Source of the DNA: a virus
Length of the DNA: 20,279 bases
Virus record (IMG/VR): IMGVR_UViG_3300028925_005534
Coordinates: 1 to 20,279 of that record
Strand: one strand, 5' to 3'
The position numbers were made by a program, and so were the translations under genes. The notes under the pieces were generated by a model. The model had not been told where the DNA came from, searched no databases, and was given only the letters and a program-made list of their open reading frames with translations. Numbering within the stretch: the stretch's first letter is position 1; each line of letters starts with the position of its first letter. Below, piece by piece: positions 8,287 to 20,279 of the stretch.

Positions 8287-8837
8287 TACAGTTCTCCTCT
8301 GTCTATGTACCAGTCAACAATTCTAGCTGTTGCCTCTACATCGTTTATTGATCGGTGGGCACCATCTATCTTCTCATCGAAAAGCTCTTCATAGATGTCC
8401 CCAAGCTTGCGCATCTTGCCCCAGACCTTTTGGCCTATTTCAACTGTGCAGATATGGTTTGGTGGCCAAGGGAACTTAGTCATCTTGTCCAGCCTTTCCA
8501 ATTCGAACCTCAGCACCTTCCTATCAAAAGGCAAGTTGTGCGCGACAAGGTCTCTTTCCCCTAGGAAGAAGTCAGTCAGCTGTTCAATTTTAGTTATGAA
8601 TGGCTTCTCGTCCTTCAGCATCTCGTCTGTGATACCTGTGATCTTTATTATCTTTGGGTCGAGCAGGTGTCCTGGATTGCAGAAGAATTCTAGCCTTGCT
8701 TCTTCGCGCATCTCTCCCTTGCCGATAAGATCATCATTATACTTTATGGCACCGAACTCAATGATCCTCGGCTGAAGGTCTAAGTCTGAGCCCTCAGCCT
8801 TGGGAAGTCCTGTTGTTTCAAGATCAAATACTATCAT
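8286..8837 (-). CDS. dnaQ: DEDDh 3'-5' exonuclease (DnaQ/epsilon-like proofreader)
   Basis: 183 residues with all five DEDDh catalytic positions: FDLETTG (Asp5, Glu7), HNLPFDRKVL (Asp105), and HRSINDVEAT (His161, Asp166). The size matches a stand-alone epsilon-type catalytic domain without the C-terminal alpha-binding tail of E. coli DnaQ. Located next to a C-family polymerase whose own PHP domain looks inactive, it most likely proofreads in trans as part of the phage replisome. The ATG at 8837 lies inside the end of the VOC gene, preceded by AGGA about 10 nt away. A role in RNA degradation (like RNase T or ORN) is the main alternative, but context favours replication. Confidence 0.92.
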   Translation of the reverse strand: MIVFDLETTGLPKAEGSDLDLQPRIIEFGAIKYNDDLIGKGEMREEARLEFFCNPGHLLDPKIIKITGITDEMLKDEKPFITKIEQLTDFFLGERDLVAHNLPFDRKVLRFELERLDKMTKFPWPPNHICTVEIGQKVWGKMRKLGDIYEELFDEKIDGAHRSINDVEATARIVDWYIDRGEL

Positions 8838-9315
8838 CTTTGTTTATCCTGACAATGAATTTCAGATCCACTCCTAGTATATCCTTGGTGTCAAAAATAA
8901 CATAGTTGTAAGATCTCTTGCCTGCTATAACAGGATTAGTGTGCGACTCAGTCATAACTTCCTGCGCAACTGGAATCCCACGGAACTCAAAGAAAACTCT
9001 CCACTTGATAAGGTCTTCCGCAGAACAATGCATACCTAAATGGCTGACTGTGTTTCTGCGTAATGTAAGGGAGTGGTCTCTGTCGTCAATCCAGTTGGGC
9101 CCAGAGGTATAGTCCAGGATCTCAAACTCATTGCCTGAAAACATATCATAGTTAAAAGACAGGTTGGCTTCATTAGTGCCTCGCTCTCCAAAAACATTAC
9201 CACTGGCAACAACATGATCTTCAGACCATTCAGTTGCTCCGATCTCAGACAGGAGCTTTTTAGCTGCAACAGGATCTTTAGGGACGATTGCTATTTGTTC
9301 GATTGTGAATTTCAT
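8824..9315 (-). CDS. VOC (glyoxalase/dioxygenase-fold) protein
   Basis: 163 residues from the ATG at 9315, preceded by GGAG; a start 12 bases upstream would precede that site and is less likely. The two beta-alpha-beta units of the vicinal-oxygen-chelate fold are visible: FTIEQIAIVPKDP (residues 3-15), NEFEILDY (62-69), then TVSHLGMHCSAEDL and a closing GVDLKFIVR. Candidate metal ligands are Gln7, Glu65 and His92; the last position, normally Glu, is Asp150. Substrate is unknown: VOC proteins include glyoxalases, dioxygenases and antibiotic-binding proteins. It lies between an SDR and the exonuclease with tight junctions, so it may be an auxiliary metabolic or detoxification gene. Confidence 0.7.
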   Translation of the reverse strand: MKFTIEQIAIVPKDPVAAKKLLSEIGATEWSEDHVVASGNVFGERGTNEANLSFNYDMFSGNEFEILDYTSGPNWIDDRDHSLTLRRNTVSHLGMHCSAEDLIKWRVFFEFRGIPVAQEVMTESHTNPVIAGKRSYNYVIFDTKDILGVDLKFIVRINKDDSI

Positions 9316-9316
9316 T

Positions 9317-10009
9317 TTAAGCTCCATATGGTAGGATGCATCCAGTCAAGTATTTGTGATGCTGTTTTGATTGAAGTAAATATCCGATGAATTCTGCTAA
9401 CTGGTTGGGAGGAGTTTCTTCACCTGTCAGCAATCCATTCAGTTGGTACTTTTGGGCATACTCTTTTGTCCATCCACGGGTTGCCACAACTTGCTCGTCA
9501 ATGGCATCGCTCATACCTGTGCCAGACAGTTTGTTGGGGGCTATACCGAAAACAGTAATGTCGTGTTTCTTGGTGAGCTCTCTGGCTAACTGTAGAGTCA
9601 TGATGTGGGCTGCAGCTTTAGAAGCATTGTAAGCCAAAGAGCAAGTCATGGGCATGTGGGCTGCATTGCTTACAATATTTACAATTGTGCCTTTATTTTT
9701 AGACAACATAGGCAAACAGGCTCTAGACATCATGTAGATGCCTTTGGCGTTTGTGTCCATTACTTTGTCCCAGTCTTCTTCTTCGAAGTCTTCCAGCCAG
9801 TTGATTACATTCACCCCAGCATTATTTATCAATATGTCGATATCTGGGATGGTGCGTTCACCTCCATCGCTATTAACAAAAGTTGGGTTGCGCACATCCC
9901 CACCACTATTAATATCGAAGCCATAAACTGTGTGGCCTTCCTTGCGAAGAGTTTCTGTGAGAGCCAAGCCCAAGCCTTTGCCAGAGCCTGTGATTAAAAT
10001 TTTACTCAT
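9317..10009 (-). CDS. Short-chain dehydrogenase/reductase (SDR)
   Basis: 230 residues, complete classical SDR. The NAD(P)-binding TGSGKGLG is at 7-14, INNAG at 61-65, catalytic Ser114 in IVSNAAH, and YNASK at 127-131 supplies Tyr127 and Lys131 at the usual 13-residue spacing from the serine. ELTKKHDITVFGIAPNKLSGTGM matches the family region after the active site, and LTGCILPYGA the C-terminal segment. The enzyme should oxidise or reduce a small alcohol/carbonyl substrate; which one cannot be read. The ATG at 10009 overlaps the upstream stop (ATGA) with GGAGG nearby. Phage-borne SDRs are thought to be auxiliary metabolic genes or to modify cell-surface sugars; its neighbours suggest neither clearly. 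Confidence 0.92.
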   Translation of the reverse strand: MSKILITGSGKGLGLALTETLRKEGHTVYGFDINSGGDVRNPTFVNSDGGERTIPDIDILINNAGVNVINWLEDFEEEDWDKVMDTNAKGIYMMSRACLPMLSKNKGTIVNIVSNAAHMPMTCSLAYNASKAAAHIMTLQLARELTKKHDITVFGIAPNKLSGTGMSDAIDEQVVATRGWTKEYAQKYQLNGLLTGEETPPNQLAEFIGYLLQSKQHHKYLTGCILPYGA

Positions 10010-10317
10010 TTCTTTTCCTCCTTTATTAGTGATTCAACCATCGCAGCATAGACTGCTGCATCGTGGATGCTGTCTTTGTGTTGAAGCTCGCTGTTTGCGA
10101 ACCTTGTTATCTTGACAATCATAAGCTCAAAAAGGTGCCAGACATTGTAATCCGAAACAGTGTTGAGCTGGATACCTTTAGGGAAAAGGCTTATCATGAC
10201 CTCCCCCACAGTCTTGTAGTTGTCGCCATAAACTTTATTGCGCTCTCGGAAAGTGTCAGCCATCTCTTCTAATATTTTGGCCGCATCTTTTTCGCCTGTG
10301 GGGTGGCGTTCATTCAT
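10006..10317 (-). CDS. MazG-like / DUF6378-type nucleotide-metabolism protein
   Basis: 103 residues from the ATG at 10317, preceded by AAGGAAGGGA; longer in-frame starts run through two other small genes and are rejected. The signature TFRERNKVYGDNYKTVGEVM, the HLFELMIVKITRFA helix and HKDSIHDAAVYAAMVESL with a His-Asp pair are those of the phage DUF6378/DUF1599-type family. I believe it to be related to all-alpha NTP pyrophosphatases and associated with nucleotide modification. It could hydrolyse a nucleotide to help control precursor pools. It ends by overlapping the SDR start. The family assignment is from memory of the pattern; the activity is inferred. Confidence 0.75.
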   Translation of the reverse strand: MNERHPTGEKDAAKILEEMADTFRERNKVYGDNYKTVGEVMISLFPKGIQLNTVSDYNVWHLFELMIVKITRFANSELQHKDSIHDAAVYAAMVESLIKEEKK

Positions 10318-10483
10318 TTTCGTCCCTTCCTTTTTCATATGATTCTCGGAGATCTTTTTCATAGTTGGTGGCCTTGTCGAAAAGGCTTTCAAGGTCTCTT
10401 CTGATGAAAGTATTGAGGTCGAAAAGCCTTGCAATCTTTTGGCCATCGAGCTCAATATCATTGCCTCTAATTTTAAGATCCAT
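10310..10483 (-). CDS. Small hypothetical protein, 57 aa
   Basis: 57 codons from the ATG at 10483, directly after a purine-rich GAGAGGAGAGGAAG, to a TGA at 10310-10312. The product begins MDLKIRGNDIELDGQKIARL, a strand-turn-strand reading resembling the small beta unit common in phage proteins, then becomes charged and helical (LESLFDKATNYEKDLRESYEK). It overlaps the upstream coiled-coil gene by 11 nt and the MazG-like gene by 8 nt, the usual packing here. Translation in this frame explains the gap left when the MazG-like start is set at 10317. The function is unknown. Confidence 0.78.
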   Translation of the reverse strand: MDLKIRGNDIELDGQKIARLFDLNTFIRRDLESLFDKATNYEKDLRESYEKGRDENE

Positions 10484-10658
10484 CTTCCTCTCCTCTCATC
10501 CATTTAATGTCGTTGGCTAAGAGAAGCTTTTCACTTGTTACTTTTTCAAGAGCTTGGGTAAGCCTTGCAACCTCAGTGCGTTGCTTTGCGATCTTACTTC
10601 TCAAAGCATCGTTCTCAAGCTGAGCATTCAAGATCCCATCAACAGTCCACTTAGCCAT
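10473..10658 (-). CDS. Small coiled-coil protein, 61 aa
   Basis: 61 residues from the ATG at 10658, which shares its first base with the upstream stop (TAATG) and has CAGGAG just upstream; the longer in-frame extension is discarded. From residue 12 onward the sequence is a single heptad-patterned helix (LNAQLENDALRSKIAKQR, VARLTQALEKV), so a parallel coiled coil or oligomerisation peg is likely. The C-terminus is acidic. No family is recognised. It lies between the HAD phosphatase and another small gene, all in one operon. Confidence 0.8.
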   Translation of the reverse strand: MAKWTVDGILNAQLENDALRSKIAKQRTEVARLTQALEKVTSEKLLLANDIKWMRGEEDGS

Positions 10659-11092
10659 TAGAAGTCTCCTGGAGCGACTTGCAGGCAAGTCAAGCCTTCG
10701 CCTCTCCACATATCAACAACAGACTTTCGGTCTTCTAAAACGAACCAAACATCTTTGTAGTCTATGTGCTTTTCGAGAAGCTTCTGCTTGCAGACTGGAT
10801 CAGGGGACTGATCCCACCTTGGCCTCATGAGCAACTCGTCATAAGGCACATCGTTCATCTCCAGCCACTTTTCAGTATCTGCTCGGCAACCTGCATCTCG
10901 AGCAGTCATGATAACAACTTTAGTTTCTTCGTCATGAAGCATTCTTATTATGTTGCAAATGTTCTCGATGGGCTTATCGTTTATGCCTGCCTTGTTAAAA
11001 GCATCGTAATCCTTCTTCTTGTAAAGAGAGATGCGGTGGCCATAATCGGAAAGTGTCCCATCAAGGTCTGCTATGATTAAACGTATGCCCAT
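10658..11092 (-). CDS. HAD-superfamily phosphatase, Pnkp 3'-phosphatase-like
   Basis: 144 residues from the ATG at 11092, with GGAGG 7 nt upstream; an in-frame start 24 bases earlier is possible but would swallow that site. HAD motifs: IADLDGTLSD (Asp9 nucleophile, Asp11 acid/base), VVIMTARD (Thr63 motif II), and FVLEDRKSVVDMW (Glu120, Asp121). The stretch ELLMRPRWDQSPDPVCKQKLL resembles the phosphatase domain of T4 polynucleotide kinase, where it carries the motif III lysine. It may remove 3' phosphates from nucleic acid ends or act on nucleotides. No kinase domain is attached. Stop and downstream start overlap as TAATG. Confidence 0.85.
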   Translation of the reverse strand: MGIRLIIADLDGTLSDYGHRISLYKKKDYDAFNKAGINDKPIENICNIIRMLHDEETKVVIMTARDAGCRADTEKWLEMNDVPYDELLMRPRWDQSPDPVCKQKLLEKHIDYKDVWFVLEDRKSVVDMWRGEGLTCLQVAPGDF

Positions 11093-11562
11093 GTTGGAGC
11101 CTCCGTGTAGTTCCACTTGGCAAAGCCTAGTTTCTCGTTGATGTAATAATCGTGATAGGCCTTAACAGTGTCGTCACCTTTATACTGATCTGGCATGCAT
11201 TGGGGTGGTTCTGTGAATCTCTTGTCCAATGAAATATACAAAGGCAATTTCCTTAAAGGATCAAGGAGCTTCTCGGTGCTGTGGGTCTTTTTGTACCTGA
11301 CCTCAAACTGCTCGCAAAGACTTACCAGCAGATAGAAGCTGTACAGATAATTATCAGCACACTCTCTTACCCAAACAGAACATGGGTGGTGCTGGAAGGC
11401 AGTTTTGTAAAGACCAGCTTTGTCAGCAGCCTCGTCACCATCAAGAATTCTCTGTGCTGTACAAAGAAGCTGTGCTGTTTCGAGTATCATTTTGACACAG
11501 TGCTTATCGCAATGCATCTCTGCACAGACCCGTGGGTCTGGGTCTAAGTAAAAAATATTCAT
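11077..11562 (-). CDS. Conserved phage protein of unknown function, 161 aa
   Basis: 161 residues starting at the ATG at 11562 after GAGAAAGGAAC. The N-terminus MNIFYLDPDPRVCAEMHCDK, then HCVKMILETAQLLCTAQRIL, is a very recognisable pattern in many unrelated phages; conserved Asp, His, Cys and Lys positions look like an active or binding site. HHPCSVWVRECADNYLYSFYLLVSLCEQFEVRY and a C-terminal proline/tryptophan segment (PPQCMPDQYKGDD, KWNYTEAPTWAYV) complete it. I know of no proven function; it often lies among nucleotide and DNA-modification genes, as here between the HAD phosphatase and ThyX. It overlaps the HAD start by 16 nt. Confidence 0.75.
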   Translation of the reverse strand: MNIFYLDPDPRVCAEMHCDKHCVKMILETAQLLCTAQRILDGDEAADKAGLYKTAFQHHPCSVWVRECADNYLYSFYLLVSLCEQFEVRYKKTHSTEKLLDPLRKLPLYISLDKRFTEPPQCMPDQYKGDDTVKAYHDYYINEKLGFAKWNYTEAPTWAYV

Positions 11563-11594
11563 TCTAGTTCCTTTCTCAATATCAGAATTGTATA

Positions 11595-11834
11595 TTATTT
11601 CTGCAAAAATGGAAACCGCTTTTTAATTCTTTTCCATATGGTATCGATCCTTTTAGATGCTTGTTCGACCTTTTCATATTCGACTTTTACAGACGGCTTT
11701 CTTTTTTCGAGAATGTAAGTAATGGCTTGTGCCTTTACTTTTAACTCTCCAGCAATTTTATGCTTGGGCCAGTGGTCTTTCATTGAATGAACTTTGTCGA
11801 CAAACTCCTGATTGTACTTTTGCTTGCGTCCCAT
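11595..11834 (-). CDS. Small helix-turn-helix DNA-binding protein
   Basis: 79 basic residues from the ATG at 11834, preceded by AGGAG. Residues about 5-48 read as a helix-turn-helix of the resolvase/homeodomain-like kind: YNQEFVDKVHSMKDHWPKHK, then IAGELKVKAQAITYILEKRK, the last part fitting a recognition helix. The lysine/arginine-rich C-terminus (KRIDTIWKRIKKRFPFLQK) could add DNA contacts. It is a plausible phage transcription regulator and one candidate to bind the GTAAC sites in the divergent control region, though nothing links them directly. It follows thyX by 8 nt. Confidence 0.72.
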   Translation of the reverse strand: MGRKQKYNQEFVDKVHSMKDHWPKHKIAGELKVKAQAITYILEKRKPSVKVEYEKVEQASKRIDTIWKRIKKRFPFLQK

Positions 11835-11842
11835 TTTATCTC

Positions 11843-12487
11843 CTATGGATTAAGTGATTTGCTCATTGATGGTGCAGCCCACTCAGTTGGTGTTAAGAAA
11901 GGTTCTGCCCATGGGTGCACTCGGACAATCTCAGCAACCATCAATTTAAACACTTGCTGGTATTCACCTTGGGCACGTGGGCTCAGGCGTGATTTAGCCA
12001 TCTCACTCAATGTTCGCAGATTGAACTTGGCTACGATATTGGTGTGGATGTTTGTTGGGAGGATGCCACGTGCATCTTCTGCTGGGACTAGATCTCTCAG
12101 CTTTTGATATGCGTCGGCAATATCAGCCATTGCATTGTCATATGCCTCCAGAGCTTCTGGGTTGTTCTCAATGCGGTCTGGGGTGTAATAGCTGAACCCA
12201 AACATATCAACTGTGCGCTGGGACTGCTGGGCATATGAAGCTTGGCGCGTCCTTACGAACTGGTGGGTGAACCCACGGCTGACGTCACGCACATTAAATG
12301 TGTAGTCAATGAACTCCCAAGATGAGCGGATTGTTTGGAGCATGTAATCAAGCTCTTTCTGCTTGGCGTCCTCTGGCCAAGAAGCAATCTGTTTGTAAGC
12401 ATCCTCGTCATCCATTAGGCGAGTGTTCTTTGTGAACAACAGCAAGTCTACTGCGTCCGAGGTGTAATTTACCAATTCTACTTTCAT
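11843..12487 (-). CDS. thyX: Flavin-dependent thymidylate synthase, variant motif
   Basis: 214 residues from the ATG at 12487, with AAGGAG upstream; the 38-residue in-frame extension is the reverse reading of the neighbour. ThyX makes dTMP from dUMP using methylene-tetrahydrofolate and FAD as a homotetramer. The family motif is at 79-91, RTRQASYAQQSQR, keeping Arg79, Arg81, Ser89 and Arg91 of RHRxxxxxxxSxR but with Thr for the usual His and Ala-Gln for the usual Asn-Glu. NIHTNIVAKFNLRTLSEMAKSRLSPRAQGE (residues 147-176) is the conserved C-terminal catalytic region with NLR and QGE. Gene overlap ATGA with the FAD oxidoreductase upstream means co-translation. It gives the phage its own thymidylate supply. 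Confidence 0.93.
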   Translation of the reverse strand: MKVELVNYTSDAVDLLLFTKNTRLMDDEDAYKQIASWPEDAKQKELDYMLQTIRSSWEFIDYTFNVRDVSRGFTHQFVRTRQASYAQQSQRTVDMFGFSYYTPDRIENNPEALEAYDNAMADIADAYQKLRDLVPAEDARGILPTNIHTNIVAKFNLRTLSEMAKSRLSPRAQGEYQQVFKLMVAEIVRVHPWAEPFLTPTEWAAPSMSKSLNP

Positions 12488-13422
12488 TGTGTTTCTCCTT
12501 TCTGAGAGTGCATCAATCGGGTGTAACTTGAACTTGACCGAATGAAATTTTCTATATGCTGGACATCTTCTGCAACGTCGTCGAGTAAAATTTGACGCCA
12601 TGTAGCAAAACGGCCAAGCGAGTATATTCCGTATTTAGTTGTCATTTCGAAAATAAACTGCTTCCTGATCTCTTCATTGATAGGCTTTATCTTGCCAAGA
12701 TACTGCTCTGAGGATTTCATGTCAACAAGTTTCTTAGGCTTAATGCCAAAGTCTTCTAGAAGTACATCCATCATATGGGGGCCAATATTGGCTTCTGGCT
12801 TCCTAATGAATTCAGATATAACAATATCACCAACTAAAGATATTCTGTAGTATGGAACTGTTGGGTCTGGGTAGTATATTGTTTGATGTACTTTGCAGTC
12901 TGGGGAATCAATGCGAGCCTTCTGCGTCCATATTTTCTGCGTGGGGAAGTCTGGCTTGTCTGGCCAGCCCATGATGTCCATCAGAGTTGGCATTGGGATA
13001 GTCGATATTGTAGGCACAGATCCCATATCATCTACAGCTGTCTTCGTCAGCTTCATGTCATATTGTATTTTGCAATTCTTAGACATGGTGCTTATAAGCT
13101 CCCATGGAGCTATGTATCTGTCGACAGCATCTAAGCTGTTGATAGACCTGTTCAGTATTGAGCCTGTTACTTTCTGAGAATATAAATTGCTCAGGAACAA
13201 GTTTGTCTCGGTGTGGAGCTTGCCATTATACTTTATGGCCTTGTGCACTTTTACTTTTGCGAAGGGGATAGCACAAGCTGTGCCAACCTTGTCAGTCCTG
13301 AATCGGAGCAGAGCTCCTTGGTTGTTAGGCAGTTCACTTTGGGCTTCGTAAATTATTGGATCGAAGCTCCTCAACATATTCCCCGCTAACAGACCCGCAA
13401 GCCCTGCTCCATATATAATCAT
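12484..13422 (-). CDS. FAD/NAD(P)-binding oxidoreductase
   Basis: 312 residues. The N-terminal Rossmann dinucleotide motif IIYGAGLAGLLAGNML (GxGxxG at 5-10) ends in a glutamate, FDPIIYEAQ, that would bind the ribose of FAD. The C-terminus, YGIYSLGRFATWRQILLDDVAEDV, has the G-R-F-A-T-W...D pattern by which amine-oxidase/UDP-galactopyranose-mutase-like flavoproteins close the FAD site. The substrate domain between is not recognisable. It is coupled by ATGA to thyX, so it may serve the same pathway, for example a reduced-flavin or base-modification step, or simply share an operon. ATGA coupling also joins it to the small gene upstream. Confidence 0.8.
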   Translation of the reverse strand: MIIYGAGLAGLLAGNMLRSFDPIIYEAQSELPNNQGALLRFRTDKVGTACAIPFAKVKVHKAIKYNGKLHTETNLFLSNLYSQKVTGSILNRSINSLDAVDRYIAPWELISTMSKNCKIQYDMKLTKTAVDDMGSVPTISTIPMPTLMDIMGWPDKPDFPTQKIWTQKARIDSPDCKVHQTIYYPDPTVPYYRISLVGDIVISEFIRKPEANIGPHMMDVLLEDFGIKPKKLVDMKSSEQYLGKIKPINEEIRKQFIFEMTTKYGIYSLGRFATWRQILLDDVAEDVQHIENFIRSSSSYTRLMHSQKGETQ

Positions 13423-16003: not shown

Positions 16004-17533
16004 TTAAAAGTCCTCAGTCACTGCACTAGGTATATCAAGTTGATCCTCGTCATCAAAGAATTCTGGCTCTGGCACAGACCAGACCTTCACAGGCTTAGAC
16101 TTGATCCTGAAAGTTTTACGGTCACCACCACTCGCTCTAAGCCAAGACCAGACTTGGTGCTGGGTGGTGTATCGGAACCTGCGAGCCTCTAAATAAATAA
16201 ATAGGTCTTCAGACCGAAAGTAAACTTTGCCCTCATCAGAGTCGTGCCATGGCTTGCCATTCATTATCTCGTCTTTCTGACGAGCTTGGACTTTGCCTGT
16301 TAAGAAGCTGTCTAACATTTTCTCGAACTGGCCTTGTGGCGAAGCATCGTCTGGGTCTACAATGACCTCGACATTCTCCAGCAGTTGGTTTATCCGCTGT
16401 TCCCAAGCTTGGGATGGCATTGTGCTGGGACACTTGTTTAGCTTCTCAACACAGATCTTTTGCAGCTGTCGCTGGTCCAGCAGTTGGGGTGTTGTTACTT
16501 CTATCCGCTCACCTTGCATCTCGATGTACCAACGCACAGACTGGCGGTTCTCAGTTTCGTATTTTGTTATCGCATCGACCTCAATAGACAGGCCACCGCC
16601 AACTCTTCCGACTCCATAGTCTCGCTTCATGCATTTAGACTTCTCGCAATAATTGCAGATTGGACTTTGTTTGCATGTGTAGGCATATTCTTTTTTGCTG
16701 ACTGACTTGACTAGGCCATTGACTTCACCCATTGGCAGAGGCTCTGGCAGGTGCTCATAATTGAACTTCATTAAGTCTTCTTGCCAGTCGTCAGGATTGC
16801 GCTTGCGGAAATAAACACCAACATTGAACAGAGAAATGTTTCTTCCACCTTCTGGGAAGCCCATGGTCATGATGTGTTGCAAGCAGGGAGGCCCATCGCT
16901 AAAGTGATCAACTAAGTCTGGCTTGAAATTCTCTAGCTTTTCAAATGTTGTTAGCTTCTTTTCAGCAAGGTCAATGAATTGTTCTAGGTTAAGTTTCTTG
17001 CCTTTATGGATTGCATGACGCTCAGTCTTGTCGCCATCCCAATAACACAAGTTGATCCAGTTGCCTCGATCTCTTTCATTGGCTCTAGATATTTGCTTGG
17101 GGAAAACTTCTGATCCGCCATAGCCTAGTAATGCAGCGAATTCATTTAGCTTTGCGACCATGTCAATAGCAGGAATGGCAGGACTGCAAAAAAGATATAA
17201 ATGAGCGCCACCAGACTTAGAACGGCATAGCACCAAAGGAGTGTCACGAATCTTTTTCTCGAGACTTTCAAGGCTTTCATTTAATTTGACCTCACCTCTT
17301 ATATCAATATCAATAACACCAAAGTGACAGCTGTTGTCCTGTAACAACGGGATGACACCTAAAATATATTCGCCACCATTCAAGTGTTCTTTAAAATTAT
17401 TTTCTGTTGCTGGTTCGCTAACAGTTATTGCTCGGCCAGACATTTTTCCGTCGGCTTCTTTTTTGTTTACTCGATACTGTCCGTGGGCAAGCTCAAAGCC
17501 TCTGAACAGTTTCATAAATCTTTTTACGTCCAT
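16004..17533 (-). CDS. Archaeo-eukaryotic-type primase (TOTE-like AEP)
   Basis: 509 residues from the ATG at 17533, with AGAAAGGAAG upstream. The AEP catalytic set is visible: GVIDIDI (Asp75, Asp77 metal ligands), CRSKSGGAHLYLF (His111 motif), and SEVFPKQ (141-147) followed by RGNWINLCYW, the pattern of TOTE-type primases. A primase C-terminal helical region contains four cysteines spaced C-x5-C-x2-C-x4-C (287, 293, 296, 301), likely zinc or iron-sulfur. The last 100 residues are probably a winged-helix DNA-binding segment ending in an acidic tail. Lacking a fused helicase, it should prime replication with a separate helicase. In TOTE defence loci such a domain has helicase and nuclease partners, but the surroundings here indicate replication. 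Confidence 0.85.
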   Translation of the reverse strand: MDVKRFMKLFRGFELAHGQYRVNKKEADGKMSGRAITVSEPATENNFKEHLNGGEYILGVIPLLQDNSCHFGVIDIDIRGEVKLNESLESLEKKIRDTPLVLCRSKSGGAHLYLFCSPAIPAIDMVAKLNEFAALLGYGGSEVFPKQISRANERDRGNWINLCYWDGDKTERHAIHKGKKLNLEQFIDLAEKKLTTFEKLENFKPDLVDHFSDGPPCLQHIMTMGFPEGGRNISLFNVGVYFRKRNPDDWQEDLMKFNYEHLPEPLPMGEVNGLVKSVSKKEYAYTCKQSPICNYCEKSKCMKRDYGVGRVGGGLSIEVDAITKYETENRQSVRWYIEMQGERIEVTTPQLLDQRQLQKICVEKLNKCPSTMPSQAWEQRINQLLENVEVIVDPDDASPQGQFEKMLDSFLTGKVQARQKDEIMNGKPWHDSDEGKVYFRSEDLFIYLEARRFRYTTQHQVWSWLRASGGDRKTFRIKSKPVKVWSVPEPEFFDDEDQLDIPSAVTEDF

Positions 17534-17555
17534 GCCTCTTCCTTTCTGATTGGTC

Positions 17556-17590
17556 GGGGGATAACTTCATTGGGACATGAGCTATCCCCC
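17556..17590 (-). repeat. Strong hairpin between SSB-like and primase genes
   Basis: GGGGGATA (17556-17563) and TATCCCCC (17583-17590) are perfect 8-bp arms, with a further TCAT/ATGA pairing inside. It lies in the only sizeable gap of this part of the operon, just before the primase ribosome site. No T-run follows in the leftward direction, so RNA processing, attenuation or a protein-binding hairpin is likelier than a classical terminator. Confidence 0.7.
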
Positions 17591-17612
17591 TAAACAACGT
17601 AATGCAGGGTGG

Positions 17613-18407
17613 CTACATTACATCATCATCAGAGGAGTCTGGTTGAACCTTGACTTCACCGTCACGAATGTTCTTGCGGAACTCTCGTGCTTCGAGATAG
17701 ATGCTTTGGCCTTGGTCTAGGTTCTGAATGATCCCTCCAGACTTAGCATCGAACATCATCTCAACTTCCCAGTTGAACCACGAGCCCATATCGTTCTGCT
17801 CAGGTGTTGTGGTCAGGTTGTAGGCAGTCCAGAACATGGCTGGATTGAATGTGCCTTTGCCTGTTGGGTGGACAACTTGTAGCCTGTTGATCATAGAGTT
17901 CCAACGCTTGGCTTTTTTAATGCCTGAAGAACTCATAGACAATATGGCAGGGGAAAATGTGCCGTCTTCACCAACAACATAAATAAAGTATTCTGCTGTC
18001 AATGATAGCTGGTTTCCGTCTGGTGTGCGCAATTTGCCTCGATCGTCTTGTACACACATTTCCATAATTGAAGGCTGTAGTCCGTGGTCTTTAACCAGCT
18101 TGCGCTCGTCAGTCCACTCGAGATATGTCTTGCGATAGCTAACAGGAACAGCTGTTATTCCCTTTTCACCATCGAACAATTCACCCGTTACATTGTCCAA
18201 GATCTGTCCAGCCTCAGCACCTTTTAGATAGGCACCATCAGCTTTATTGACTTGGGGAGATTGAGCTTGTAAGATCTTGAGACGTGGGATGAGCATATCA
18301 TCCGCTGTCATATTCTCACCTGCTGTGCCCGCATCTTCTAAAAGAATGGACGCATCAAATGCAATTACATTGCTCTCTTTTTTTACTTCTACTTCATTTT
18401 TAGCCAT
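17613..18407 (-). CDS. Candidate single-stranded DNA-binding protein with acidic tail
   Basis: 264 residues from the ATG at 18407, preceded by AGGAGG, one of the strongest ribosome sites here; a 24-residue extension upstream is rejected. It has an acidic N-terminus (NVIAFDASILLEDAG), then DDMLIPRLKILQAQSPQV, a strand-rich core (GITAVPVSYRKTYLEW, AEYFIYVVG, FNWEVEMMFD) and a C-terminus PDSSDDDVM like the acidic protein-interaction tails of SSB proteins (DDDIPF in E. coli SSB, acidic in T7 gp2.5). Strong expression, place beside the primase and an OB-compatible core make SSB the best guess; homology is not proven. It overlaps the upstream gene by 8 nt. Confidence 0.65.
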   Translation of the reverse strand: MAKNEVEVKKESNVIAFDASILLEDAGTAGENMTADDMLIPRLKILQAQSPQVNKADGAYLKGAEAGQILDNVTGELFDGEKGITAVPVSYRKTYLEWTDERKLVKDHGLQPSIMEMCVQDDRGKLRTPDGNQLSLTAEYFIYVVGEDGTFSPAILSMSSSGIKKAKRWNSMINRLQVVHPTGKGTFNPAMFWTAYNLTTTPEQNDMGSWFNWEVEMMFDAKSGGIIQNLDQGQSIYLEAREFRKNIRDGEVKVQPDSSDDDVM

Positions 18408-18996
18408 GGTATCCTCCTGTGATTTTGGCTTTACGACCTGTGAATAACTTAAACAGATCATGGGGAACATCCTTGCCATCAGTCAATCGCTCTTTGATAA
18501 AAGAGTTAAGTGACCCATGGTGGACGCCGACTGCACGTTTGTAAAAGAGATTTCTTTCACGCAACTCATCCGCAAAGTCATTGCATGCTTTGTCTTCATC
18601 TCTTCCGAACTGAACCTCAACATTGCTTTTAATTAAGTCACCAGCATTATTAGCTCGCAACCAATCGAAGCATTGTTGTTGACGCACTTCTAGTTCAGAC
18701 CTGTCATCTCCTCTTGCTTTCATAATAGCAGAAGCAGATGGAATAGAACCAGAAGTTATATCTTGAACCTCAACCTTACCACCATTGGTAAGAGTAAAGT
18801 CCTTGACGTTCAATTCTTGCATTAAGTCAGGCAAGTCATGTTCAGCCAACTTCGTCAGGTTCTGCTTTTTTTGCTTCAACAGCTCATTCAAATCATTTAT
18901 CTCTTTTTCAAGATCAAACATTTGTTGAGCCATATCAGCCACTGCACCTATTGAGTTGGACGCAGGTGCCACGTCCTCAAGCAGATTGATATTCAT
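18400..18996 (-). CDS. Conserved coiled-coil phage replication-region protein
   Basis: 198 residues. A clear coiled coil at about 20-55 (MAQQMFDLEKEINDLNELLKQ) is followed by a small strand unit DFTLTNGGKVEVQDI, then a C-terminal domain with QQQCFDWLRANNAGDLIKSN, VEVQFGRDEDKACNDFADEL, GVHHGSLNSFIKERL and VPHDLFKLFTGRKAKI. This arrangement recurs next to SSB or recombination genes in many T7-like and marine phages, but I know of no demonstrated activity. The ATG at 18996 has GAGAAAGGAAA about 12 nt upstream, a little far; no better start is in frame. It is probably a DNA-replication accessory. Confidence 0.8.
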   Translation of the reverse strand: MNINLLEDVAPASNSIGAVADMAQQMFDLEKEINDLNELLKQKKQNLTKLAEHDLPDLMQELNVKDFTLTNGGKVEVQDITSGSIPSASAIMKARGDDRSELEVRQQQCFDWLRANNAGDLIKSNVEVQFGRDEDKACNDFADELRERNLFYKRAVGVHHGSLNSFIKERLTDGKDVPHDLFKLFTGRKAKITGGYHG

Positions 18997-18997
18997 C

Positions 18998-19366
18998 TTA
19001 ATTTATTTCCTTTCTCATTTCTAAAGCGACAGGCATGTACCAGCCTTTGCGCCTGTCACGGTCTCCTTCTTCCATGTTACGTTCCCATCTAAGGACACGC
19101 ACCACTGGTGACATTTCAGCTGCGATCATACACGCTATCATAACAGCTATGGGGTCACCACCTCCTGGCCACAAAAGATAATCTTCCGTGGAGAAGTCTT
19201 TCATAATCTTACGAGCTTTTTGGATCGATGGACTAGGTAAAAACTGAGGCTTTTCATTAGGCTCAAATACAATTTCAAGCGAACCATAACGAGCAGCATC
19301 AGTCAGATCTGGAGTCCAACCGAACTTGTTCTCTCGTGGTCTTGTTACCACATAAACTTTTGACAT
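18998..19366 (-). CDS. Hypothetical phage protein, 122 aa
   Basis: 122 residues from the ATG at 19366 after GAGAAAGGAT. It reads KVYVVTRPRENKFGWTPDLT, LEIVFEPNEKPQFLPSPSI, STEDYLLWPGGGDPIAVMIA, then VRVLRWERNMEEGDRDRRKG and WYMPVALEMR. The LLWPGGGDPIAV segment and the beta-rich C-terminus are typical of a small conserved early protein family in marine podoviruses for which I know no function. Its stop lies 1 nt before the coiled-coil gene's ATG. It is the second gene of the leftward operon. Confidence 0.78.
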   Translation of the reverse strand: MSKVYVVTRPRENKFGWTPDLTDAARYGSLEIVFEPNEKPQFLPSPSIQKARKIMKDFSTEDYLLWPGGGDPIAVMIACMIAAEMSPVVRVLRWERNMEEGDRDRRKGWYMPVALEMRKEIN

Positions 19367-19387: not shown

Positions 19388-19431
19388 AAATAAACTTTAA
19401 CCTGTTTTCAATAGGAAGAAAAGTTTTATTT
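19388..19431 (-). repeat. Imperfect hairpin between first two leftward genes
   Basis: AAATAAACTTT (19388-19398) pairs with AAAGTTTTATTT (19420-19431) with one bulge, and CCT/AGG pairs inside. It begins at the stop codon of the zinc-ribbon gene and ends before the next ribosome site. It may be a weak terminator or processing site that lowers readthrough; AT-rich composition makes chance pairing possible. Confidence 0.45.
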
Positions 19432-19721
19432 TAATCAGCGATATCCTTGTCCAATATCGGTATTGGTCTGAGCATCCTGTCGTATGATACTCTTTCTTGC
19501 ACCCACAAGCCATCTATCTTCTTGTCCAGAGCCTTTTGTTCTTCTTCAAGGCTGGGGGAATTGTCACAACTCTTTGCCCTCACCCTCCTCATTACAACTT
19601 CTTCGGTTCTAAAACACGCATTGCAAACTGGGCATTTGCGAAGCCGAAAGCTGACGCCTTGTCTGGTGACTCCTGAGTTCGTTACTCTGGTTGTTTTCTG
19701 ATCGCAGTCTATACACCGCAT
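19431..19721 (-). CDS. NrdR-like zinc-ribbon protein without ATP-cone
   Basis: 96 residues. The first 45 match the zinc-ribbon of NrdR: MRCIDCDQKT (Cys3, Cys6), a basic strand GVSFRLRKCPVCNACFRTEEV (Cys30, Cys33, and the RTEE that parallels the NrdR FTTYE segment). NrdR represses ribonucleotide reductase genes through this ribbon plus an ATP-cone; here the cone is absent and the rest is a charged helix (SLEEEQKALDKKIDGLW). It is the first gene of the leftward operon, next to the control region, so a phage transcription regulator is a fair guess. The ATG at 19721 has GAGAAAGGATT upstream. Confidence 0.8.
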   Translation of the reverse strand: MRCIDCDQKTTRVTNSGVTRQGVSFRLRKCPVCNACFRTEEVVMRRVRAKSCDNSPSLEEEQKALDKKIDGLWVQERVSYDRMLRPIPILDKDIAD

Positions 19722-19750
19722 CTATAATCCTTTCTCAATATTAGAATTAG

Positions 19751-19779
19751 AGTTTAAATTCTAGAATTCTAAAAGTAAA
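19751..19779 (-). promoter_or_regulatory. Leftward control-region promoter with palindrome in spacer
   Basis: Leftward: -35 TTTACT (19774-19779), 17-bp spacer, -10 TAAACT (19751-19756), about 30 nt before the first gene's start. The spacer contains AATTCTAGAATT (19757-19768), a perfect 12-bp palindrome. It lacks the conserved TTATCAAC leader of the other four promoters but shares the -35 and spacing. Confidence 0.6.
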
Positions 19780-19791
19780 CATTTTTCTTGC

Positions 19792-20069
19792 GTTACCGAA
19801 CTTTTCAATATAGACCAAGCCAGTAACCAAAGAACCAGCGTTACCGAACTTGATTTGTTTTGGGGGACGTCCTATGGTTTACAAAACTATATAGGGGAAA
19901 AAATTTTGAGGTGAAAAATAATTCTTTAAAATTAGTGAAAGTCTGGAAACACTGGTAACGAAAGACGATTACTCTATACATTACAGAGGGTTGCGAGCGT
20001 TACCTAACAGGATAAATGATGGTAACCGAAACCACACACTGGTAACTTTCTTTCATAAAACATGTAACC
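19792..20069. repeat. Cluster of eight GTAAC-core sites in divergent control region
   Basis: GTTACC or GGTAAC occurs at 19792, 19840, 19954, 19999, 20021 and 20041, and one-mismatch GTAACC cores at 19823 and 20064. GCGTTACCGAACTT is repeated exactly at 19790-19803 and 19838-19851. ACACTGGTAAC is repeated at 19949-19959 and 20036-20046. The last four sites are spaced 22, 20 and 23 bp, near two helical turns. They occupy the 432-base gap between divergent genes and look like operators or replication iterons for one protein. Confidence 0.75.
19861..19947. other. AT-rich stretch inside the control region
   Basis: Between GTAAC sites 3 and 4 lies about 90 bases without sites or open frames, starting with a G-run (TGGGGGACG), a short CCTAT/ATAGG inverted repeat (19871-19895), then a strongly AT-rich segment at 19896-19936. 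Combined with flanking iteron-like sites, it could be an unwinding element of a replication origin, or just promoter DNA. Nothing else is seen here. Confidence 0.4.
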
Positions 20070-20070
20070 T

Positions 20071-20124
20071 ATTGTTTTATCGTGTTTCTTTTCTCTTTAC
20101 TTGTCTGCTAATAAAAGATAGAGT
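20071..20124 (+). promoter_or_regulatory. Repeated early promoter, copy D (rightward)
   Basis: Rightward: ATTGTTTT box (20071-20078), 21 nt, -35 TTTACT (20096-20101), 17-bp spacer, -10 TAGAGT (20119-20124), then CTTATCAACTTAGAAAGGAA into the gene at 20154. A GTAACC site abuts the box (20064-20069). Leader and core are almost identical to copy B. Confidence 0.77.
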
Positions 20125-20153
20125 TCCTTATCAACTTAGAAAGGAATTAACAA

Positions 20154-20279
20154 ATGGCACAACGTGAAGTAAAATATGAGAGCCCAGCACACAAAATCTT
20201 TGCAGGAAAAAGCAATTGGCAGGGATACAAAGAAAATGATGTTATAGCGATAGCATTTGAGTCAAGAAACCACGGCACT
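20154..20279 (+). CDS. Hypothetical early protein, 3' end outside window
   Basis: 42 codons are visible from the ATG at 20154, preceded by AGAAAGGAAT. The N-terminus reads MAQREVKYESPAHKIFAGKS then NWQGYKENDVIAIAFESRNH, with no recognisable domain. It is the first gene of a rightward unit driven by promoter copy D, back to back with the leftward module, so it is probably an immediate-early gene. Its product could not be judged from the visible part. Confidence 0.75.
   Translation, partial: MAQREVKYESPAHKIFAGKSNWQGYKENDVIAIAFESRNHGT

Follow-up and report, generated by a model that had tools for sequence, protein, structure and literature searches.

Between two gene blocks that point away from each other, the stretch of viral DNA analyzed here (hereafter the window, 20,279 bp, the whole length of its record) carries a dense cluster of GTAAC cores, raising the question of whether the region is an origin of replication, a control region for the flanking operons or something else. 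Eight GTAAC cores fall within 277 bp (19792-20068), and exact GGTAAC/GTTACC occurs six times over a span of 255 bp (at 19792, 19840, 19954, 19999, 20021 and 20041), out of 11 exact copies in the full window, where 3.95 are expected. A 260-bp stretch held at most 2 exact 6-mers in 200 simulated windows, and 5000 simulations at the region's own AT-rich composition gave a mean of 0.24 and a maximum of 3, bearing out the cluster as the initial annotation described it. The two longer exact repeats it reported are also real, being a 14-bp pair (GCGTTACCGAACTT) at 19790 and 19838 with no third copy in the window. The last GTAAC sites are spaced at 45, 22, 20 and 22 bp. The list of eight iteron-like copies, however, needed revision: the copy at 20064 is probably not an iteron because it falls within an IHF-like box, for which many relatives have TAAGTCATTG, and two sites with the same skeleton but other central bases, GGAAAC (19945-19950) and GAAACC (20028-20033), had been missed. 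The features of the region are collected in Table 1.

Table 1. Features of the element and its surroundings, in window coordinates.
Feature	Position	Strand	Description
Element	core 19884-20101, left arm from 19780		Single-copy, ~250 bases, between outward-facing gene blocks
Putative leftward promoter	19751-19779	-	-35 TTTACT 19779-19774, 17-bp spacer, weak -10 TAAACT 19756-19751
Left arm	19790-19851		GTTACC 19792-19797, GTAACC 19823-19828, GTTACC 19840-19845; two exact GCGTTACCGAACTT
CTATATAGG-AAAATTT block and AT-rich tract (candidate DNA unwinding element)	19884-19944		Conserved in the 69-row alignment
Skeleton site s0	19945-19950	+	GGAAAC; GGTAAC in close relatives, e.g. L004; GG invariant in 69/69 rows
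Skeleton site s9	19954-19959	+	GGTAAC
Skeleton site s54	19999-20004	-	GTTACC on the + strand
Skeleton site s76	20021-20026	+	GGTAAC
Skeleton site s83	20028-20033	-	GAAACC on the + strand, = GGTTTC; CC-N7-GG dyad with s96
Skeleton site s96	20041-20046	+	GGTAAC; CC (s83) and GG (s96) invariant in 69/69 rows
IHF-like site	20065-20077	-	AAACAATAGGTTA, 1 mismatch to WATCAANNNNTTR; box 20065-20074 = CAATAGGTTA; absorbs the eighth GTAAC
Rightward promoter	20096-20124	+	TTTACT-17-TAGAGT, ~30 bp before the first gene
NrdR-like zinc-ribbon ORF (ZnR)	19431-19721	-	Pfam Zn_ribbon_NrdR, score below cutoff
Replication operon core	16004-19366	-	gp32-like (122 aa), gp33-like (198 aa), gp34-like (288 aa), AEP primase (509 aa)

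Relatives of the locus were collected with the 122-aa protein encoded at 18998-19366, which yielded 70 distinct upstream regions, and a nucleotide profile of the core built from 40 of these matched all 70. Sixteen longer contigs each contained one strong match (16/16), with secondary matches many orders of magnitude weaker, and the element always separated the replication operon from the operon on the terminase side. For the right side we relied on the near-identical contigs L001 to L003, in which the terminase genes come next. GGTAAC sites recur at fixed spacing in many of the 70 regions, and relatives without GGTAAC have GGTTTC, GGGAAC or GGGTTC at the same places. Across a 69-row alignment we found a fixed skeleton of GGNWWC at 0, +9 (or 8), +54 (minus strand), +76, +83 (minus strand) and +96, with the GG of s0, s9 and s96 and the CC of s83 invariant in every row, whereas the middle bases vary. 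The GGTAAC type accounts for about 18 of 44 distinct elements, that of the window included, and central triplets agree within an element at 0.40 compared to 0.19 when shuffled, a figure that ignores kinship. The exact hexamer first taken as the motif therefore does occur at conserved places but is not universal, the conserved pattern being GGNWWC at fixed spacing. Equal density elsewhere in the genome and loss of position in relatives had been named as the observations that would speak against the cluster; nowhere else in the record do the sites reach a similar density, and both position and skeleton are conserved. We regard it as nearly certain that the element is a site where a specific nucleoprotein complex would assemble. 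Its site geometry outlives its site sequence, a property that helps find origins by architecture instead of motif.

The flanks of the core are less constant. Most lineages, but not all, have a left arm that carries further sites; a AAAAGTAAA block recurs in the relatives with this arm, and gp32 lies 53 to 906 bp from the element, with optional genes in the interval. In most relatives, the first gene on the right starts 50-87 bp beyond where the profile match ends. This gene differs in almost every lineage, with a promoter ahead of it at a near-constant place, and the place right of the element is an accessory slot for small early genes. Promoters had been predicted to fire out on both sides: the rightward one is good and lies at about the same place in relatives, but the leftward one, which would serve ZnR, gp32 and the replication operon, is weak. 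Where a good rightward promoter was recognized, it lies 45 to 75 bp past s96, at distances near 45, 55, 65 and 75 bp (a weak pattern, p=0.057).

Left of s0, relatives share CTATA(A/T)RGG-AAAATTT and an AT-rich tract. We computed nearest-neighbor stability in 60-bp windows on 16 contigs and found that the best 60 bp of this tract rank among the lowest 0.26% of the contig in 15 of the 16, the exception being G010 (2.7%), and form the single least stable peak in 7 of 16. The window's own tract ranks in the lowest 0.16%, as the eighth peak. An AT-rich tract next to the array, as expected of an iteron-type origin, is thus in place. On the other side of the array, a box with no more than one mismatch to the IHF consensus WATCAANNNNTTR is present right of s96 in 32 of 44 distinct elements (0.09 expected per 60 bp) and exact in 5 of 44 (0.006 expected per 60 bp), so that a predicted IHF site of the kind an IHF-assisted origin requires is in place. 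The distance from this box to s96 is mostly about 4-5, 12-15 or 24-25 bp, i.e. one helical turn apart (distinct-value p=0.0018, with related sequences non-independent and a few elements without a clear box left out). A second box, CAANNNNTTR, is found in the s9-s54 spacer of 29 of 44 elements, nearly always at -57 to -59 or -72/-73. The element thus has several copies of a sequence repeat in one non-coding region, in a fixed and helical register as measured by conserved spacing and quantized box distances.

The genomes in which the element sits are represented by contigs of 50-56 kb that appear to be circularly permuted; in them a single replication operon and a single packaging and structural operon diverge at the element. 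The replication operon encodes, in order, homologues of gp32, gp33 and gp34 of cyanophage Pam3, then an AEP primase and a UvrD helicase, and all five are present in 16 of 16 contigs. Further along are genes that we take, from their sequence, to encode DnaE and an SNF2-type helicase. The primase profile weakly matched the CRISPR-associated Prim-Pol structures 7nqd/7nqf (E 0.004); its own structure model was poor (pLDDT 57), and we found no relatives of it in bacterial genomes. In G012 (12751-13304), the primase gene is apparently split over two reading frames, by a frameshift or a sequencing error. The Pam3 homologue of the gp33-like protein (window 18400-18996) is annotated as a host-nuclease inhibitor, and the DSL-LC04 gene at the same place as a DNA-ends-protecting protein. 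An AlphaFold model of the gp33-like protein (pLDDT 81) has a 50-residue N-terminal helix and matched no PDB entry at E ≤ 0.001. In all ten near-complete contigs (10/10), cumulative GC skew reaches its minimum at the element. The maximum, however, is mostly near +17 kb, where the two operons converge, and not at the antipode, and the arms beyond the maximum show no replication-dependent sign change. GC skew here follows gene direction and therefore reports transcription; the skew analysis that the initial annotation proposed does give a minimum here, but one wholly explicable by divergent transcription, and it is no proof of an origin.

We found that the element travels with this replication module. 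The gp32-like, gp33-like, gp34-like and primase genes always accompany it, while Roseobacter phage CRP-902, whose TerL is 82% identical and which has a PrimPol replication module, lacks the element and likewise gp32, gp33, gp34, the AEP primase and UvrD. Among 80 contigs surveyed by anchoring on TerL, 22 with module genes carry the element and all 5 scored as PrimPol do not. Two apparent exceptions are explained, L175 as a PrimPol contig with a gp32 homologue and L188 as a contig end that retains 29 residues of gp32; L201 carries the element but no module gene within the sequence available, and the remaining 50 contigs, many of them short, have neither the element nor module genes. The homologue in L175 (1183-1524), a CRP-901-type PrimPol contig, is 61% identical to the 122-aa gp32 protein, and the element is absent there; gp32 was rejected on this basis as the element's partner. 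By reading, the element is not visible in the short divergent gaps of the isolates DSL-LC04 and 023Pt_psg01, which have the same gene order. In contigs G012, G013 and G015, TerS fits the family profile chiefly in its C-terminal part, as in CRP-902, beside a TerL that is 82-83% identical, a pattern that points to exchange of the TerS N-terminal part.

A natural experiment is provided by L091 (4210-4600), which is near-isogenic to L083 and G004 (27780-32100) except that the ~350-bp element has been replaced and the rest kept. Identity is ~65% across the element compared to 91-100% in most adjoining 100-bp blocks, and the GGTAAC/GGTTAC set is exchanged for GGGAAC/GGTTTC. No donor was found, the best match to the L091 element being its own group (67%). 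Replacement of the element alone indicates that it behaves as a cassette. The gp34 and primase genes of these contigs remain ~79-99% identical per 100-bp block despite the swap, so it is not obvious that these proteins set the central bases, and recognition of GG-N-W-W-C by the binder is probably loose. Strict co-evolution of the motif with one protein was rejected, as the L091/L083 swap shows that a large protein change is unnecessary.

Three proteins had been put forward as the binder, and none is universal. The NrdR-like zinc-ribbon protein was not found in near-complete contigs G001, G003, G004, G007 and G009, all of which have the element; the HTH protein (11595-11834, 79 aa, HTH79) was detected in a minority only; and the gene at 20154 occupies the variable accessory position. 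Zinc-ribbon proteins of this kind are very diverse and adjoin the element in about half of lineages. Another protein, p209, shows a motif-distance correlation of 0.59, on 16 elements only, and was rejected because it is not universal. The universal candidates for an initiator are gp32, gp33, gp34 and the primase, and none of the replication-operon proteins scanned was recognizably like a known iteron initiator (RepA, Pi, lambda O, DnaA). Similarity of site sequences correlates with that of gp34 (r 0.58) and the primase (r 0.53), compared to 0.23-0.29 for gp32, gp33 and TerL, and gp32 and gp33 lie nearer to the element than gp34 and the primase, yet correlate less. The state of s9 (TAA or other) requires 3 parsimony changes on the gp34 and primase trees versus 5 on those of gp32, gp33 and TerL. 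These sequence comparisons are no more than suggestive of a motif-protein association, and our best guess for the initiator among the universal phage proteins is the gp34-like protein or the primase.

Given its architecture, its association with the replication module and its unstable tract, we lean toward the element being the replication origin of this phage family, of an iteron/IHF type with divergent promoters built in. The initial annotation's reading of the region as a divergent, iteron-like control region and possible origin is thereby supported as the best explanation, though not the three binders it named. An initiator would bind the GGNWWC array, bending by IHF would bring its distant sites together on one face of the helix, and the AT tract would melt; the products of the neighboring genes, AEP primase, gp34-like protein, UvrD helicase and DnaE polymerase, could then load there. 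The same complex would probably couple replication to the two outward promoters. A more specific proposal, which we regard as possible rather than likely, is an origin class whose initiator, Pam3-gp34-like or AEP primase, is not yet known as one and reads a degenerate GG-N-W-W-C array together with IHF, the sites keeping their geometry, changing sequence in concert and being exchanged as a ~350-bp cassette, as if pressed by something that targets origins.

Many of the same features could instead serve purely transcriptional master control, in which a phage regulator on the GGNWWC array would, with IHF, activate or repress two divergent early promoters while replication starts elsewhere. Promoters on both sides and an IHF-like site between the array and the rightward promoter would suit such a switch, and the roughly 10-bp steps in the position of that promoter, weak as they are, would fit helical phasing. 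We nevertheless consider it rather unlikely, as the right -35 is 55-150 bp downstream of the sites, a long way for an operator, while on the left inserted genes alter the distance to the first operon gene (53 to 906 bp) and the arm beside the leftward promoter is lost in some lineages. Furthermore, no universal gene is of a recognizable DNA-binding regulator type, with ZnR, HTH79 and p209 all failing, and an operator needs no unstable 60-bp tract.

Two other roles are much less probable. In phage lambda, gpNu1 binds cosB with help from IHF. A packaging site (pac or cosB-like) could share this design of protein-binding repeats that include an IHF site, with the small terminase binding GGNWWC and IHF helping, and the element does lie on the terminase side of the genome. 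A packaging role is very unlikely here: in G012, G013 and G015, the match of TerS to the family profile is confined mainly to the last ~50 positions, the rest of the protein being different, but their GGTAAC set and spacing are unchanged from those of the window group; site similarity tracks TerS less than it does gp34 or the primase; and a tract of genome-minimum stability is unexpected at such a site. We judge it highly improbable that the region is a structured non-coding RNA or attenuator, starting near TATAAGG and ending at the CC-N7-GG hairpin and T-run. A short CCAG/CTGG hairpin followed by T-rich sequence does recur in many lineages, but RNAalifold detected nothing in the element beyond a hairpin of 4 bp, the seven inner bases of the CC-N7-GG motif show no stem-like covariation, and an Rfam search with the element gave no match.

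Taken as an origin, the element resembles described systems in part. Iteron arrays in helix phase, AT-rich DNA unwinding elements and IHF are described parts of lambda and plasmid iteron origins (PMC5043065), and like the origins of P1, RK2, R6K gamma, pSC101 and lambda (PMC5043065) the element combines an array of repeated binding sites in helical register with an adjoining AT-rich unwinding tract, IHF and neighboring replication genes. In contrast to these, it has mixed site orientations at fixed, non-uniform spacing and only 6-bp GGNWWC cores whose middle bases drift, and it has no recognizable initiator gene and no DnaA box noticed by eye on reading the region. The PLE origin and RepA of Vibrio cholerae satellites, with selection by the ICP1 nuclease Odn (PMC8263062, PMC7145576), likewise have iterons in a non-coding region and modular origins that differ among close relatives through swapping or restructuring, and PLE origins are swapped under attack by an origin-directed nuclease (PMC8263062). 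However, RepA and the PLE origin covary as a pair, whereas in L091 the element alone was swapped and the flanking replication genes little changed. NrS-1 PrimPol pairs an AEP-superfamily primase with a short recognition motif, the template site TTTGGTTA (PMC8718748). One exact TAACCAAA, the complement of that site, lies in the left arm of the window (19824-19831); it is not conserved in relatives, and the NrS-1 site is read on a single-stranded template. By terminase, the closest isolates are Roseobacter phages CRP-901 and CRP-902 (PMC10149686; TerL about 80-82%), which differ in having the PrimPol replication module, with CRP-902 lacking the element.

The papers found here did not describe origins for phages that combine an archaeo-eukaryotic-type primase with a DnaE polymerase, and these results yield a precise 250-bp candidate origin and a short list of universal possible initiators. 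The family with the element is found widely in marine viromes and is a marine family that probably infects roseobacters. Within its replication operon, the window also encodes an apparent FAD-dependent oxidoreductase, ThyX, a HAD-like protein and an SDR (8824-13422; identities from sequence only), metabolic genes that some relatives have and others lack.
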